Source: Fragilaria crotonensis (lineage: Eukaryota > Bacillariophyta > Fragilariophyceae > Fragilariales > Fragilariaceae). Taken from it: a stretch of DNA of 64,000 nucleotides. A program made the translations under genes and the position numbers. Shown here in pieces: positions 21,491 through 29,300 of the stretch; position 1 is the stretch's first letter, and each line of letters starts with the position of its first letter. Location: assembly GCA_022925895.1 (NCBI GenBank), contig JAKSYS010000052.1:1-64000 (forward strand). Reading direction: 5' to 3'. Below the pieces are notes generated by a model. It worked only from the letters and a program-made list of their open reading frames with translations. It was not told where the DNA came from and ran no database searches.

Positions 21491-22186
21491 GTACCACATA
21501 AAAATGGCTTTGACCCGATAAATTGGCTTTGAACCAATCTCTTGTGAAATTCAAGGAACTTTACACAAAAACAATCCATTTTCCATAATTTCACACCGTG
21601 ACCTATTGTAAAGCTCTTCTTAGTTAACCAATAGAGATATGTTCTGCTGATACTAGAAAAGCATTTTAAATGCTCAATTCTCTAAAAAACGCATACTGTA
21701 GATGAGACGTCAAAACATTGTTGCAAGACCATTTTTCACATGTCGAGGATGCCCTCCCAATTTCTACATGCTACAGTTCTGTATATTTTCATACGTTTGA
21801 GAGAATTCCACTTGGCGTTTGTTCTACACTGTGTGGTACAAACAGCTCGTACAAAACCCTGTACCAAAACGAATTTTGATTGACAATTCAGTCATCAACT
21901 CTTGTGAAAAATATTAAGAACGGTGTATAAAATATAATCTATATATATATATATATTTATATTTATACATGACTTTGAACCAGTAAATGAAAAACGAAGA
22001 CTTGTATATCATCGAAAGGCAATTCGGATCTTGCTCCAGTACTTTGATCATTCCTCATTGCTGTTGACAAGCAGATGAAGGATCAATGATATAAGAACTG
22101 GTCATTGAACATTTATGTTTCTACGGAGATATAGTAATTTAAAACTCTTGTGAAACTATTGGCTCCAAGCCATTTTTATGTGGTAC
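21491..22186. mobile_element. Small TIR element, 696 bp, TACCACATAAAAA ends
   Basis: The ends are inverted copies of GTACCACATAAAAATGGCTT. The similarity continues in weaker form through a CTCTTGTGAAA-like word further in on each side. The interior is AT-rich, contains a TA microsatellite near 21943-21970, and has no coding sequence. No clear target duplication is visible. It lies 30 bp from a second element with the same terminal word. Confidence 0.7.
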
Positions 22187-22216: not shown

Positions 22217-22815
22217 TACCACATAAAAAGTGCCTGGAGCCGTTACTTTCACCCCGTTGTGGACTAAAGATATCTTGCTCAAAAATGCTTTGATTTCAAT
22301 TCTGTTTTTTTACAAATGCTGTGTGATGTTCTTGGCTATCCAGAACATTAATCATTCTTTTTCCAGAGCAAGAATTGATGAAGTTGTCGCTGAACTTGTG
22401 ACGCTCATTTTAGCAGTTATCAGCTCCAGGCACTTCATTTAAATGTATCCATACCTTAAGACATTTTTTAGGCATCGGTTGAGATTTTTCACCCCATTCA
22501 ACTATGATTTTTTGTACTTGTTTTCTACTGCTACAGAGTTTTTCCCTATTGGTGGTACGCGATCAATGGGGTGAAAATCCGAGGGGGTGAAAAATTGCGA
22601 GCCCTCAACTTCCAGTGATGTTTACAACACCAGTTTCTAATCGGTTTGTTCACCACTCCAGAAGACTTCGTTGTATTGCATATCAGAGATCAAAACGGCC
22701 ATAGCAAGTGCCATTGATTTCTTGAAATTGAGTGACTTATTTGTAGGAGGAGTCGAAAAAACCCCGTTTAACGGCTCCAGCGGTCGAAACGGCTCCAGGC
22801 ACTTTTTATGTGGTA
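22217..22815. mobile_element. Small TIR element, 599 bp, TACCACATAAAAA ends
   Basis: Inverted ends begin TACCACATAAAAAGTGCCTG and continue with GAGCCGTT; the right arm adds an extra GGAGCCGTT copy. The interior holds several GGGGTGAAAA words and no gene. The shared first 13 bp with the neighbouring element point to one transposase family mobilising both. No clear target duplication is visible. Confidence 0.7.
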
Positions 22816-23127
22816 GTGTACAATGCTGTATGTCATGGTGCGACGTAGTACGCGGTACTGTTGTACTACCGGTAGCTACCGTCGCATGGCATGTAGAATT
22901 GCATACTGCATACTGCATTCCTCGGATTGGTTAGCGGCAGGGTTACTGGTTACTGTCTCACCGGCAGCAGGTACTGTATTTAAACAGTGTAGTATCACAG
23001 TATCACACATTGACAACAACAGTACGAGTATGCATACTGCATACCAGTAGGTGGTACCAGGCAAGCCTACCGCATCATCAGCCGCTGCCCGGTGCGGAAG
23101 TCTTGATTTTCATATGCTACATACCAT

Positions 23128-23138
23128 CCGACCATCCG
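23128..23138 (+). repeat. Left copy of 11-bp target-site duplication
   Basis: CCGACCATCCG lies directly before the left terminus of the 23139-24150 element and is repeated exactly after its right terminus (24151-24161). The ATCCG word also overlaps a local ACCATCCGACCATCCG repeat, so part of the match could be older. Confidence 0.8.
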
Positions 23139-24150
23139 GGAATGCTTAATGCACTAAAATTTAAGGCGCTAACTTATTGCTAAACGAATCAGAATCCGCT
23201 GAGACGTCATCACTCCACAATGACTCTTTGCACCCCCTATTTAAATAAAATTGTGTTCAATCGAGGTGTGAAGAATTCGATCATTCATAATCGCATATAT
23301 ACATAATGTTAGGCACATGTAAGATTGGCCCTCCTTGTCCCAATCGAATTTCAAGTCACATTCATTTAAGCAAATGCATGCGTATACGTAGTCAGTACGC
23401 ACACCAAGTACCAGGGATGTCATGTTTATACAAATCGACTTCTCTAGTACTACGAAGACAAATCTACGATCGTTTGATACTGCACGTCTACGGGAGTTTG
23501 TAGTCGACTGCACTACAGTACAGTACAAAATCAATACGAATGCTTCTACTTTAGTACGCGTAACGCGTACGGCTTCTACGACAGTACGCCTAATTCTACA
23601 ACGTGGTATTTCAGTACGATAAAACCTGTTTCAGTACGCCGGTGTTGTTGCACTCAGGTGAGACCATGGAGGAAATGCTGTGAAAATCAATCAAAACAGC
23701 TTCACTCTCATTGTCACTATAACAGATAGGCTACAATTACAACATGAATAGAACACACAGATTGGAGAGTTAAAGAAGGGTCAACTACAAGAGAATGGAC
23801 CCTCAACTGTTGACAGTTGAGGGTCCATTGTCACAAATTACAATTTGATTGTTTTATGCACATCCGGTTGCGTACCAGTACCTTCACACCCGTTTCTACG
23901 AGATTCTACGTACCTTGGGCTACGTATGTACGATTGTTCAGTAGAATTCAAATTCAAAGTTGGGCGCGGACGTTGAAAACATTGAGGGTGGCGGTGCCGG
24001 CGTGCAATTCGAATACACATTATCATGCATGAATAAGATTAGGATTTCTCAGATGACTATTTTGACCCCTTTCCCCGATGACGTCTCAGCGGATTCTGAT
24101 TGGGTTAGGGCTTTAGTTAGCGCCTTAATCGTTAGTGCATTAAGCATTCC
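23139..24150. mobile_element. Non-autonomous Mutator-like TIR element, 1012 bp
   Basis: The inverted ends are about 77 bp long, starting GGAATGCTTAATGCACTAA and ending near CAGCGGATTCTGA / TCAGAATCCGCTGAGACGTC, with scattered mismatches. The 11-bp flanking duplication and long TIRs suggest a Mutator-like (MULE) origin. There is no transposase inside. The middle holds a perfect 17-bp-stem hairpin with a 2-nt loop (23794-23829, arm AATGGACCCTCAACTGT). The right end lies 12 bp after its target copy and 23 bp before the hisA ATG, so the insertion now forms the immediate hisA upstream region. Confidence 0.85.
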
Positions 24151-24161
24151 CCGACCATCCG
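24151..24161 (+). repeat. Right copy of 11-bp target-site duplication
   Basis: An exact second copy of CCGACCATCCG, between the right terminus of the TIR element and the hisA start codon at 24174. It marks where the insertion landed in the former hisA leader or promoter. Confidence 0.8.
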
Positions 24162-24173
24162 CTCTCTCGGACG

Positions 24174-24953
24174 ATGAAGTTTCGACCATGCATTGACCTT
24201 CACAACGGTCGGGTGAAGCAAATTGTGGGATCGACTCTGACAGACAGCGCTGTGGAGTCACCGGCTGAAAATTTTGCTACTGATAGGCCAGCGGCGGATT
24301 ATGCCGAGATGTATCAACGAGATAAGCTAATAGGTGGCCACGTGATAAAGCTGGGGCCTGGTAACGACGAAGCTGCGAAGAGTGCCCTCAAAGCTTACCC
24401 CCAAGGGCTTCAAATTGGAGGTGGTATAAATGATGAAAACGCAATGGAATGGTTGGACGCCGGAGCTTCCCATGTTATTGTTACGTCGTACGTATTCAGC
24501 GATGGAAAGATCAACTATGAGAGGCTACGCAAACTTGTTGAAATTGTTGGGAAGGAAAGATTGGTGCTGGACCTTTCCTGCAGACGAAATCCAAGCGATC
24601 CCGATGGCCCTTATTACGTCGTCACTGATCGATGGCAAAAATACACAGACATGCCTGTCAATCGTAACACGCTGCAGGAGCTTGGTGCTTTCTGCGATGA
24701 GTTTCTTGTCCATGGCGTCGAGGTTGAAGGCAAGCAATGTGGGATTTTGGAAGACCTCGTCATCCTGCTCGGAGAGCACTCTCCAGTACCCGCCACGTAT
24801 GCTGGCGGGGTACGATCAATTGAAGACATGGAGCTGGTCTTGGCTCTCGGAAAGGGAAAAGTGGATTTAACTATCGGCAGTGCCCTCGACTGTTTTGGTG
24901 GATGTCTGAGCTATGATGACGTTGTTGCCTGGCACAACGAACAGAACGTTTAA
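24174..24953 (+). CDS. HIS6: ProFAR isomerase, eukaryotic HIS6/HisA type
   Basis: This enzyme carries out step 4 of histidine synthesis, the isomerisation of ProFAR to PRFAR (EC 5.3.1.16), on a (beta-alpha)8 barrel. The single-exon protein of 259 aa matches the length of yeast His6 (about 261). It opens with [17 protein letters not shown], holding the first catalytic Asp in CIDLH. Phosphate-binding loops are seen at LQIGGGIND and near [12 protein letters not shown], with the later VLDLSCRRN segment typical of the eukaryotic branch. The start is the usual first residue of this family, so no organelle-targeting extension is encoded in this frame. A targeted form would need an upstream exon, and the TIR insertion now occupies that space. 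It is tail to tail with PSTK, 16 bp between stop codons. Confidence 0.93.
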
Positions 24954-26362: not shown

Positions 26363-29300
26363 ATGACTTCAACACAAGAGGTGTTGTTTTCTCCGCAGCC
26401 ATCATTGTTTGAACGGATTGACAATGAAATTGATGCCTACCATCAACGTGCGTGGCCAGCATTGCGGCCATTCAATGGTTTTTTAGATGCTCTCGGGTTG
26501 AGGAGGATGCACCAGCAGCAGGGCACAGTTGTTACCAACAACCAAGATGATGTTGATTTGTTTGAAGATGTGAGAAACTTGTTATATACAAACATCATTA
26601 TAAGATTTGATCCCGGTGTATATCCCATCAATGGTGGATGGGGCAAGAACTGTGGTGGTCAGAAGCTTATTGCTGCTCTTCGTGTAGCTTCGCAGAAGTC
26701 TGGCGGTTGTGACCTTACTAACTGTAATGGGGGCACAAAGACGGGAAGTAAGAAGTACATTTTTGTCCAAAGCATTGCCAGTATGACACTCAAGCAGTGC
26801 AAGGTTAAGTCAGGCAAACCTCAACCCACTGGGCCTTTGCGATCCATGACATATCTCTGTGACAGGACAAACACTCACGGTAGATTAGGAAAGCAAGTCA
26901 ATGAGGAGGCGTACAGTACTAACCAGCTGCCCCTCATCTGCTGAAGAGACTTGTAAGGCTCATTTCATTCCGGACTTTGACCAGGAAACTTATTTGTTCA
27001 GATGTGGTGTTGGACAAGGGATTCACACAAATCACACGCCATTGGTGCTGCAGAGATGACCATCCATGCAAAGTTTATTGATGATGAAATGCTAACTTAT
27101 CAAAAGGAACTGGCACTTGCCAACATCCTACCTGGCAAGACAGCATAAGCTGTTAATGCAAGGTTGAGTAGACGTCTGACTCGTCGACACGTCGCCTATT
27201 GCCAAGGGTTTGCAAAGTTGGCTTCCTCATTGGCTGATGCCACTGAGGTTGAAGGAGATGTCGTTGCCTTGTCAAGTGATCTTGACATTTTGATTGATGT
27301 ACTAAAGAGGAAGGGTGCAAGTTTTTCTGCCCTACACCATTGCAGCAAGGAAGGTAGTGCATATGAGCTCCCAAAGCCCAAGAAATCCAAGTCAAATGTC
27401 AGTAAGTTGTCTGAGGAAATGTTGTTTACTGAAACTGGTAGCGCATTCTCGGATGAGACTCCGTGTGAGATTGTTGGGGAGCCTGTAGTACTTGGAGAAG
27501 ATACTATGATGAAGTATGCTCGTGAGAGCCGAGTGTCTGTGAATGCTGATGACAACCAAGATGTCTTACTTGCCATTGTCTGGGTTATTCCCACAGGGAA
27601 GCAATTGTTCCGTGCATATTAAGAGGTCATGCTCATTGAGGATGGAACACACAAGACAAACAAAGAAAACAGGCCCCTCGCTCATAACAATGGGAATCAA
27701 GGACTGCTATGGAAAAATGCAAATCATTCTTCGTGCATTTGTCCCAAAGAAGAGAGCTTGGATGTTTTGTTGGCTATTTTAAGTTGCCACACCATCACTG
27801 ATTGGTACCTCTTTTTGTGAGTTGGTCCGGTTACAAATTACCGATGGCGACTCACAAGAGACTTCGCAACTGGACCTTGGCTGCGCTGAAGACTATTTTC
27901 AAGAATTCAAAGCGGCGACGCTGTGGTTGGCACATCATTGAAATTGGCTGGGAGAGGAATGCCTCTGGTTTGGGCCAAACAAAAAAGGCAAAGCACATCA
28001 AAGCTATTGTCAAACAGTGGATCTACAGTCTGATGAAGGATATTGATAAGGTTCATGAGTATCGTATGTGAGTCAATGTTTAGTGCAGATGTAGAACGTT
28101 GCTCGTAAATATGCACTTACCTCAACACGACTCTGCTTCATTTACTTCCTACTGAGCTCAAAGGCCCTTCTTGGTGTGTACGTTCAATCCAATTCTGTCA
28201 GGGTCATTGTAAGCCTGAGTGGAAGCAACATTATCTGAAAATTGCTTCGCACAAATGTCGTCCCGCACAAGAAAAACTTTGCTGGTCATCACTATCAGTT
28301 CACCTTTTCCTTCAATGAATACTCAAACACATGCCTTGAGGGCACAAACAATGGACTTCAGGACAACTCTGAATCGGTACTTCCCTCCATGGGACTTGCA
28401 AAATCAGGAAAATGTATGGTTTATCAAGATGAGTGTAAGGCATATCATCGGTAGAGATGTTCCTTGGCAGCCTCCGATGGTGTCCCACTGTACACCAATA
28501 CACAGACATGTTGTTACATACAAGCCGTGGCTGGCAGAAACAATGTTACAAGAACAAATTACTTTGGATGGGATTTACTCCTCAGTTCAAATATCCAAGA
28601 CACAGCGGAATGTTGGTTTCTCTTCCATGCAACACAAACCTGCCTCTTATGCTGATATGGCACCAAAGCCATCATTTGCCTGCATCCGTATTGTAATCCT
28701 GAATCAAGCCGGCCAACTGCACTGCTCCTGTGGCTTTACCGAGCGCAATGGGGTGCCTGACCGTCATGTTATTCACGTTGCCCTGCCTTAATTATGGGAA
28801 CTTTGAGGGTTTTACTCACCATCACGTTGCTGTCCGCTTCTAGCAAGCATTCAACAAGTTTGTTGCTGTTGGTGAGCCCTCAGAAATGGATCCACTCCAA
28901 TTAGTAGGCATATGCAACAAGCTGTGACAGGCACAATGCTCTCACTTCACTGGTGTATCCATCCCTGGAGGAGGCTTCAACACATTTCAACAGGTAACAG
29001 AATTCGTTGTAGGGAAAAACTCGACTGCGGCATTCCATTGTTGCATGGATGCTGCCGCATTTGCATATTTCCAAGATCATCTTGACCTGGAAGTGGTCAA
29101 TTACGGTACCATCACAGTGAATTTGGCACTTGCTGCCTTGGAAGGTAACTCATCTCATGGCATTGGCTTGACACAAGAAACCTACAACACAGACAACAAT
29201 GATGAATTTGAGGATGACTTGTTCCGGGAGCACAACATTGCATCCTTTTCCTCGCGGCAATCCACAGGGACACAAACAATGACAGCACACGAAATTCTTG

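Follow-up and report, generated by a model that had tools for sequence, protein, structure and literature searches.

In the window, by which the whole analysed stretch of 64,000 nucleotides is meant, the start codon of the hisA gene is closely preceded by a short transposable element with inverted ends. The features of this locus are listed below in the order of their coordinates.

22219..22813, no strand: inverted-repeat element of 595 bp with TA on both sides, present in many close copies and serving as a control family
22816..23128, plus strand: former direct upstream DNA of hisA, ~310 bp, without listed repeats
23129..23137, no strand: 9-bp target site duplication (TSD) CGACCATCC, left copy
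23138..24151, plus strand: non-autonomous MULE, 1,014 bp, with the termini GGGAATGC...GCATTCCC
23138..23211, plus strand: 5′ terminal inverted repeat (TIR), ~74 bp
23791..23832, no strand: internal palindrome of 20+20 nt, which recurs in many copies from the search of the own genome
23937..24151, minus strand: 3′ terminal ~200-215 bp of the element, 83-87% identical to the transposase-side leader on contigs C63, C776, and C873
24029..24196, plus strand: upstream-ATG frame with ATGs at 24029 and 24053, overlapping the hisA start out of frame
24077..24151, minus strand: 3′ TIR on the hisA side, ~75 bp
24152..24160, no strand: 9-bp TSD CGACCATCC, right copy
24174..24953, plus strand: hisA, 259 aa, an intact single exon present at one place in the assembly

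The preliminary description had recognised a 1012-bp element with inverted ends of ~77 bp, an 11-bp target duplication, and a distance of 12 bp between the duplication and the hisA ATG. The inverted ends, the exact repeat, and the closeness to hisA were all confirmed, while the measures had to be corrected. It was found that CCGACCATCCG is indeed present exactly at both 23128-23138 and 24151-24161 (11 bp). Copies elsewhere in the genome fix the element ends as GGG...CCC, and hence the duplication proper is 9 bp; of the two surplus letters, one belongs to the element's own end and the other to the flank, and they match by chance. The hisA ATG at 24174 is thus 13 bp away from the 9-bp duplication and 22 bp away from the element. 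At a given position, 9 bp would match by chance with a probability of about 4e-6. The matching arms lie at 23135-23174 and 24115-24154 (90%) and at 23180-23211 and 24077-24108 (94%). Taken as a whole, the TIR arms are ~75 bp in length with 86% identity, which corresponds to the long TIRs of Mutator-like elements.

The complete element was used to search its own genome at the DNA level, which also serves as the test for captured host gene fragments as in Pack-MULEs. The places inspected, a part of those listed, were copies of this short element (MITEs), parts of long elements, and sister elements. At least 26 copies including the window copy were found at 23 sites, two of them truncated at one end; this number is a lower bound, as 40 of the 89 candidates were scored in an assembly of 62.1 Mb and 881 contigs. 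Same-site copies were left out of the sites: L010 has both flanks in common with L009, while L024 and L036 correspond to L019 and L020, respectively, with one available flank each. The target duplication is an exact 9 bp in 15 of the 22 copies with both flanks, which lies within the 8-11 bp of Mutator-like elements. At the single site of L009 and L010, the duplication is 8 bp exact and 8/9, respectively. Copy L018 has a 7/9 duplication, and the flanks of L015 and L016 show by eye a merely imperfect, shifted likeness without a clear TSD. No duplication was found between the flanks of the truncated copies L025 and L029.

The copies fall into two subfamilies. The first consists of the window copy and a pair on C689 and C387, whose identity to it is 98.1-98.4%. 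Subfamily B comprises the remaining 23 copies, with a pairwise identity of 99.9% on average and 99.5% at minimum; such near-identity of the sequences is a sign of recent spread. The copies at C689:25644-26653 and C387:29358-30365 are one insertion, seen on two contigs; the flanks have 97% identity, and the pair represents either two haplotypes or a duplicated region. Empty sites were found for two of the 15 sites whose flanks were joined, and all 40 candidates scored belonged to these two sites. The C405 copy, which interrupts an LTR-like repeat whose matches recur ~6.9 kb apart, has a 180-bp empty site at 100% in C242 and C98. The C82 copy has an empty site at 97% in six contigs. In both cases, the empty site has a single target, as in Mutator-like elements. 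No empty site for the hisA insertion was found in the own genome, where the hisA region is present at one place only. The sister elements L038-L042, L044, and L045 are 1.03-1.07 kb in length, and their interior is 73-81% identical to the hisA-side element. They have other ends (ATCCGATTA...), and no 9-bp duplication was found for them. Compared with the hisA-side family, the ends may have been exchanged.

Which transposase could have moved these copies? A search for the terminal pattern revealed pairs of similar ends lying ~7 to 15 kb apart. ORF and protein searches revealed that eight long elements with these ends hold ORFs or fragments of one transposase, and the match on C63 is a 1,114-residue frame without stops. 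The Pfam matches to MULE (E 3.8e-4 to 4.2e-3) and SWIM (0.0095-0.027) are partial and all below the curated cut-offs. In the C63, C776, and longer C873 ORFs, the stretches IALDGMK, VFGDGL, and SSIAEAN contain D-D-E-like residues recognised by eye, which would correspond to the D-D-E triad. The label of MULE transposase is based on these sub-threshold Pfam matches together with the duplications, the ends, and the D-D-E-like pattern. A direct search for the MULE domain gave 91 matches, none of which falls within the eight long elements; their transposase presumably has too weak a score for this search. An exact 9-bp duplication was detected by a script in four of the eight long elements; one was also found at C873 and, by reading the boundary, at C592. 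C63 has an 8-bp duplication by eye, and C286 has none. Towards its 5′ end, the short element resembles the long ones on C63, C776, and C873 only in the ~74-bp TIR.

The Mutator-type origin proposed earlier is therefore well supported: a probable Mutator-like transposase is encoded by longer relatives that end in the same way, empty sites are known for two of the copies, and the 9-bp duplications and the ~75-bp ends agree with it. By itself, the hisA-side element is an ordinary MULE derivative. Downstream in the window, a frame-broken relic at 27149-28788 overlaps weakly with the MULE region (E 0.61) and has a CxC...CxH-like end, and no Pfam match was obtained for the two ORFs scanned there. 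The genome has 19 silicon-transporter matches, 18 of them above the cut-off, and C97:29749-33762 carries three silicon-transporter domains in a single open frame of 1,456 residues; a diatom is thus the most likely host.

Did the insertion cut off an upstream targeting exon of hisA, as the preliminary description had considered? A genome search with PF00977 gave four places, namely the window hisA, a better-scoring place on C548, which I take to be of the hisF type, and two places on C881 with short, partial matches. The window HisA aligns from residue 2 with the solved HisA proteins 9fcf and 2agk, presumably from a plant and from yeast, respectively. The aligned first codon is an ATG in 78 of 80 bacterial loci (the best 80 of 572 bacterial and archaeal relatives), although MKFRPCID was one of the six seeds of this search and may favour loci starting there. 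A further possible in-frame upstream start is present in 30 of these 80 loci. When the flanks of the element are joined, the upstream frame is open again without an in-frame ATG. Thus, the cut-off exon found no support: hisA is complete from its ATG, the open upstream frame has no in-frame ATG, and nothing points positively to the loss of a targeting exon. A targeting exon might conceivably lie further upstream and be spliced on. As to HisA targeting in diatoms, the consulted part of PMC3901274 contains no statement on the location of HisA. The window HisA is 52-64% identical to the HisA of Desulfobacterota, Bacillota, and other bacteria (L059-L138, the best 80 kept), and this likeness in sequence may indicate gene transfer. 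No hisA relatives were found in viral contigs.

Since the element ends 22 bp before the ATG, the hisA transcripts must start in, cross, or splice across the element, unless the leader is 22 nt or shorter. Upstream ATGs lie at 24029 and 24053, and an ATG-free leader must begin after 24078 or be spliced. A simple scan found no TATA-like hexamer at 23938-24173. Over the last ~140 bp, the window copy carries a single substitution relative to L009, and no upstream ATG has been lost; thus, there is no sign of tuning of the 3′ end. As to the earlier suggestion that the element now supplies the promoter or leader, it is plausible that the element could act as a donor of either to hisA. Further upstream, the 595-bp TA element has relatives at more than 30 places in the genome, and nine compared copies are 96-99.8% identical. 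A second repeat at ~21900-22186 adjoins it, and hence a pile of mobile elements lies upstream of hisA.

Is the direction of the insertion common in this family? The orientation of ORFs was used in place of gene annotation, and introns were ignored. I counted the nearest ORF at each of 31 sites, comprising the 23 MITE sites, with up to 2 kb of flank on each side (the 5′ flank was unusable at three due to a contig end), and the eight long elements. With a cut-off of 200 aa within 500 bp, which was picked after the table had been seen, the nearest ORF is co-directional with the element at all 18 sites having one (31 examined; p = 8e-6). At 14 of these 18 sites, the ORF start faces the 3′ end of the element. 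With other cut-offs, the ratio is 20 of 22 sites within 1,000 bp and 19 of 21 at 150 aa within 500 bp. The p values range from 3e-5 to 1e-3 for the remaining 11 settings with a minimum of 200 aa or more and from 8e-5 to 5e-3 for the 150 and 175 aa settings. At 130 aa, the ratio is lower, between 16 of 21 sites and, at the loosest setting, 20 of 30, with p values of 0.023-0.099. Kept outside the 31 sites were L055, which was dropped as apparently the same locus as L054 because of matching ORF distances and lengths (without an alignment), a fragment on C516 with a co-directional 477-aa ORF at 567 bp, and 12 elements on C782, C724, C744, C723, C545, C659, C870, C108, C560, C88, C372, and C385.

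At the 23 MITE sites, every ORF that reaches 200 aa and lies within 500 bp is co-directional (15:0, p 6e-5); 11 of them present their 5′ end to the 3′ end of the element, and four present their 3′ end to its 5′ end. The ratio is 19:4 within 1,000 bp and 18:3 at 150 aa within 500 bp. The eight long elements, which were looked at after the bias had been noticed, have a ratio of 6:0 for ORFs of at least 200 aa, three of these ORFs being at C873, while counter-directional ORFs of 150-199 aa occur at C776, C286, and C193. As small controls, counted by the same script, the TA-flanked 595-bp element has a co-directional ORF at three of five sites (nine examined), and the sister family without 9-bp duplications at two of four sites (seven examined). 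Two divergent subfamilies of four and three loci, whose polarity is uncertain, have a ratio of 3:3 for ORFs of at least 200 aa within 500 bp; the first includes one pair with the same duplication.

For a Pfam scan, 38 flanking ORFs were picked by length and nearness, two of them being one gene on two contigs. There are 19 ORFs that reach 200 aa or more and lie no further than 500 bp from an element, and all of them are co-directional. A match above the cut-off was obtained for 12 of these, namely hisA, S41, CRAL_TRIO, ADI, TLD, FkbM, Ank (twice), WD40, UCH, a GRDP-like ORF, and a gag-type zinc knuckle ORF. Beyond 500 bp, C48 at 520 bp, SelO at 668 bp, and PreP at 882 bp are co-directional, while DUF6824 at 515 bp from L028, a ThiF-like ORF (below the cut-off) at 583 bp from L027, and the KTI12-like ORF behind hisA at 821 bp are counter-directional. 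The leader is most likely to be affected by the element in hisA (22 bp) and in the CRAL_TRIO gene at 41 bp from L015. The flanks of the 23 MITE sites have a single match in common, of 158 bp at 76%. The target consensus NGTTCAACN (19 sites) is weak and nearly palindromic, with only the middle base leaning (C 9, G 4), and thus it is not an obvious origin of the polarity. These results suggest that the family members mostly turn the same end to the start of the neighbouring gene, by landing or by surviving in one direction.

The following course of events may be proposed. A non-autonomous MULE/MITE would have been mobilised by the transposase of the long elements of the same family and inserted 13 bp before the hisA start codon with the duplication of 9 bp. 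The host promoter may dictate the polarity with which the transposase complex integrates, or insertions of the other polarity may be lost. The transcription of hisA would now start in or near the 3′ end of the element, because the element ends just 22 bp short of the ATG and a longer unspliced leader would be disturbed by the ATGs at 24078 and before. I regard this account as a whole, that is, a MULE insertion, a directional bias of the family, and hisA transcription from in or near the 3′ end of the element, as quite probable. Two causes of the polarity fit, namely directional integration and survival only where the 3′ end can act as a promoter. On the side of directional integration, this may be a MULE family with a fixed polarity to host promoters, in which the transposase-leader end is placed head-to-head with the gene as a divergent pair, the short derivatives keep the polarity, and the leader end serves as the hisA promoter; I hold this only tentatively. 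Insertion may instead have been random in orientation, with copies pointing their 5′ end to a gene cutting it from its promoter and being lost, while a 3′ end that transcribes outward lets the gene be kept. Such selective loss would explain the side bias before start codons: at the MITE sites, 11 ORFs with a minimum of 200 aa and a distance of up to 500 bp have their start at the 3′ end of the element, and none has it at the 5′ end. The homology of the 3′ end to the transposase leader, and the presence of a single intact hisA despite an element 22 bp from its ATG, also agree with it. However, subfamily B, 99.9% identical on average, has had little time for purging, and one co-directional copy lies in the LTR-like repeat upstream of the gag-type zinc knuckle ORF, where selection for host expression is unlikely; this one case favours directional integration. 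Survival is a possible cause that falls short of being the probable one.

A further reading is that an ordinary MULE came to lie near a gene start without any directional rule, the bias being a chance product of ORF calling in a small sample; this seems unlikely. MULE insertions near start sites are known (PMC7337890, as far as its consulted part goes), and the bias is weaker at low ORF thresholds and mixed in the divergent subfamilies. The p value of 8e-6 at 200 aa within 500 bp, with 5e-3 or less at all settings from 150 aa up, nevertheless speaks against an accident, as do the recurrence of the bias in the long elements, examined after it was first noticed, and flanks that have just the one 158-bp, 76% match in common. 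The transcription of hisA might also start in the old promoter (22816-23128), with the element being a leader intron that is spliced out or a silent spacer. The ~310 bp without listed repeats is still in place upstream, and a pyrimidine-rich stretch with an AG ending at 24089 is seen by eye before the last 62 bp of the element, but an intron of roughly 900 bp or more would be needed. I consider a start in the old promoter distinctly unlikely.

A fixed polarity upstream of genes is known from Dictyostelium, where orientation-specific retroelements lie upstream of tRNA genes. The hisA-side family resembles these in polarity, while it is a DNA transposon at Pol II genes and those are retroelements at Pol III genes. 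The consulted part of PMC6446971 gives long TIRs and TSDs of 8-11 bp for MULEs; in its Table 1, the MULE-Diatoms group has TIRs of 123-124 bp with the entry 'No TSD and not indicated'. As compared by description only, this group shares with the hisA-side family a SWIM-type transposase (putative here), inverted ends, and a stramenopile host (presumably a diatom here), while the hisA-side family differs in its ~75-bp TIRs and clear 9-bp TSDs. The insertions of Mu and Pack-MULEs cluster near transcription starts and the 5′ ends of genes, as stated in the consulted part of PMC7337890. The maize Mu and Pack-MULEs are thus similar to the hisA-side family in their insertion near the 5′ ends of genes, while no fixed polarity toward the gene is described in that part. 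Nor was a description of a fixed polarity for MULEs found in the consulted parts of the open-licence literature. The polarity would not be ordinary if it is upheld with annotated genes. A fixed orientation, if true, would mean that promoter direction is read, either by the integration machinery or by selection. The near-identical copies provide a natural experiment on promoter replacement, in which genes at 22 and 41 bp can be set against those at 200-500 bp, and hisA, only 22 bp away from the element, is the sharpest test case for the cause of the polarity.
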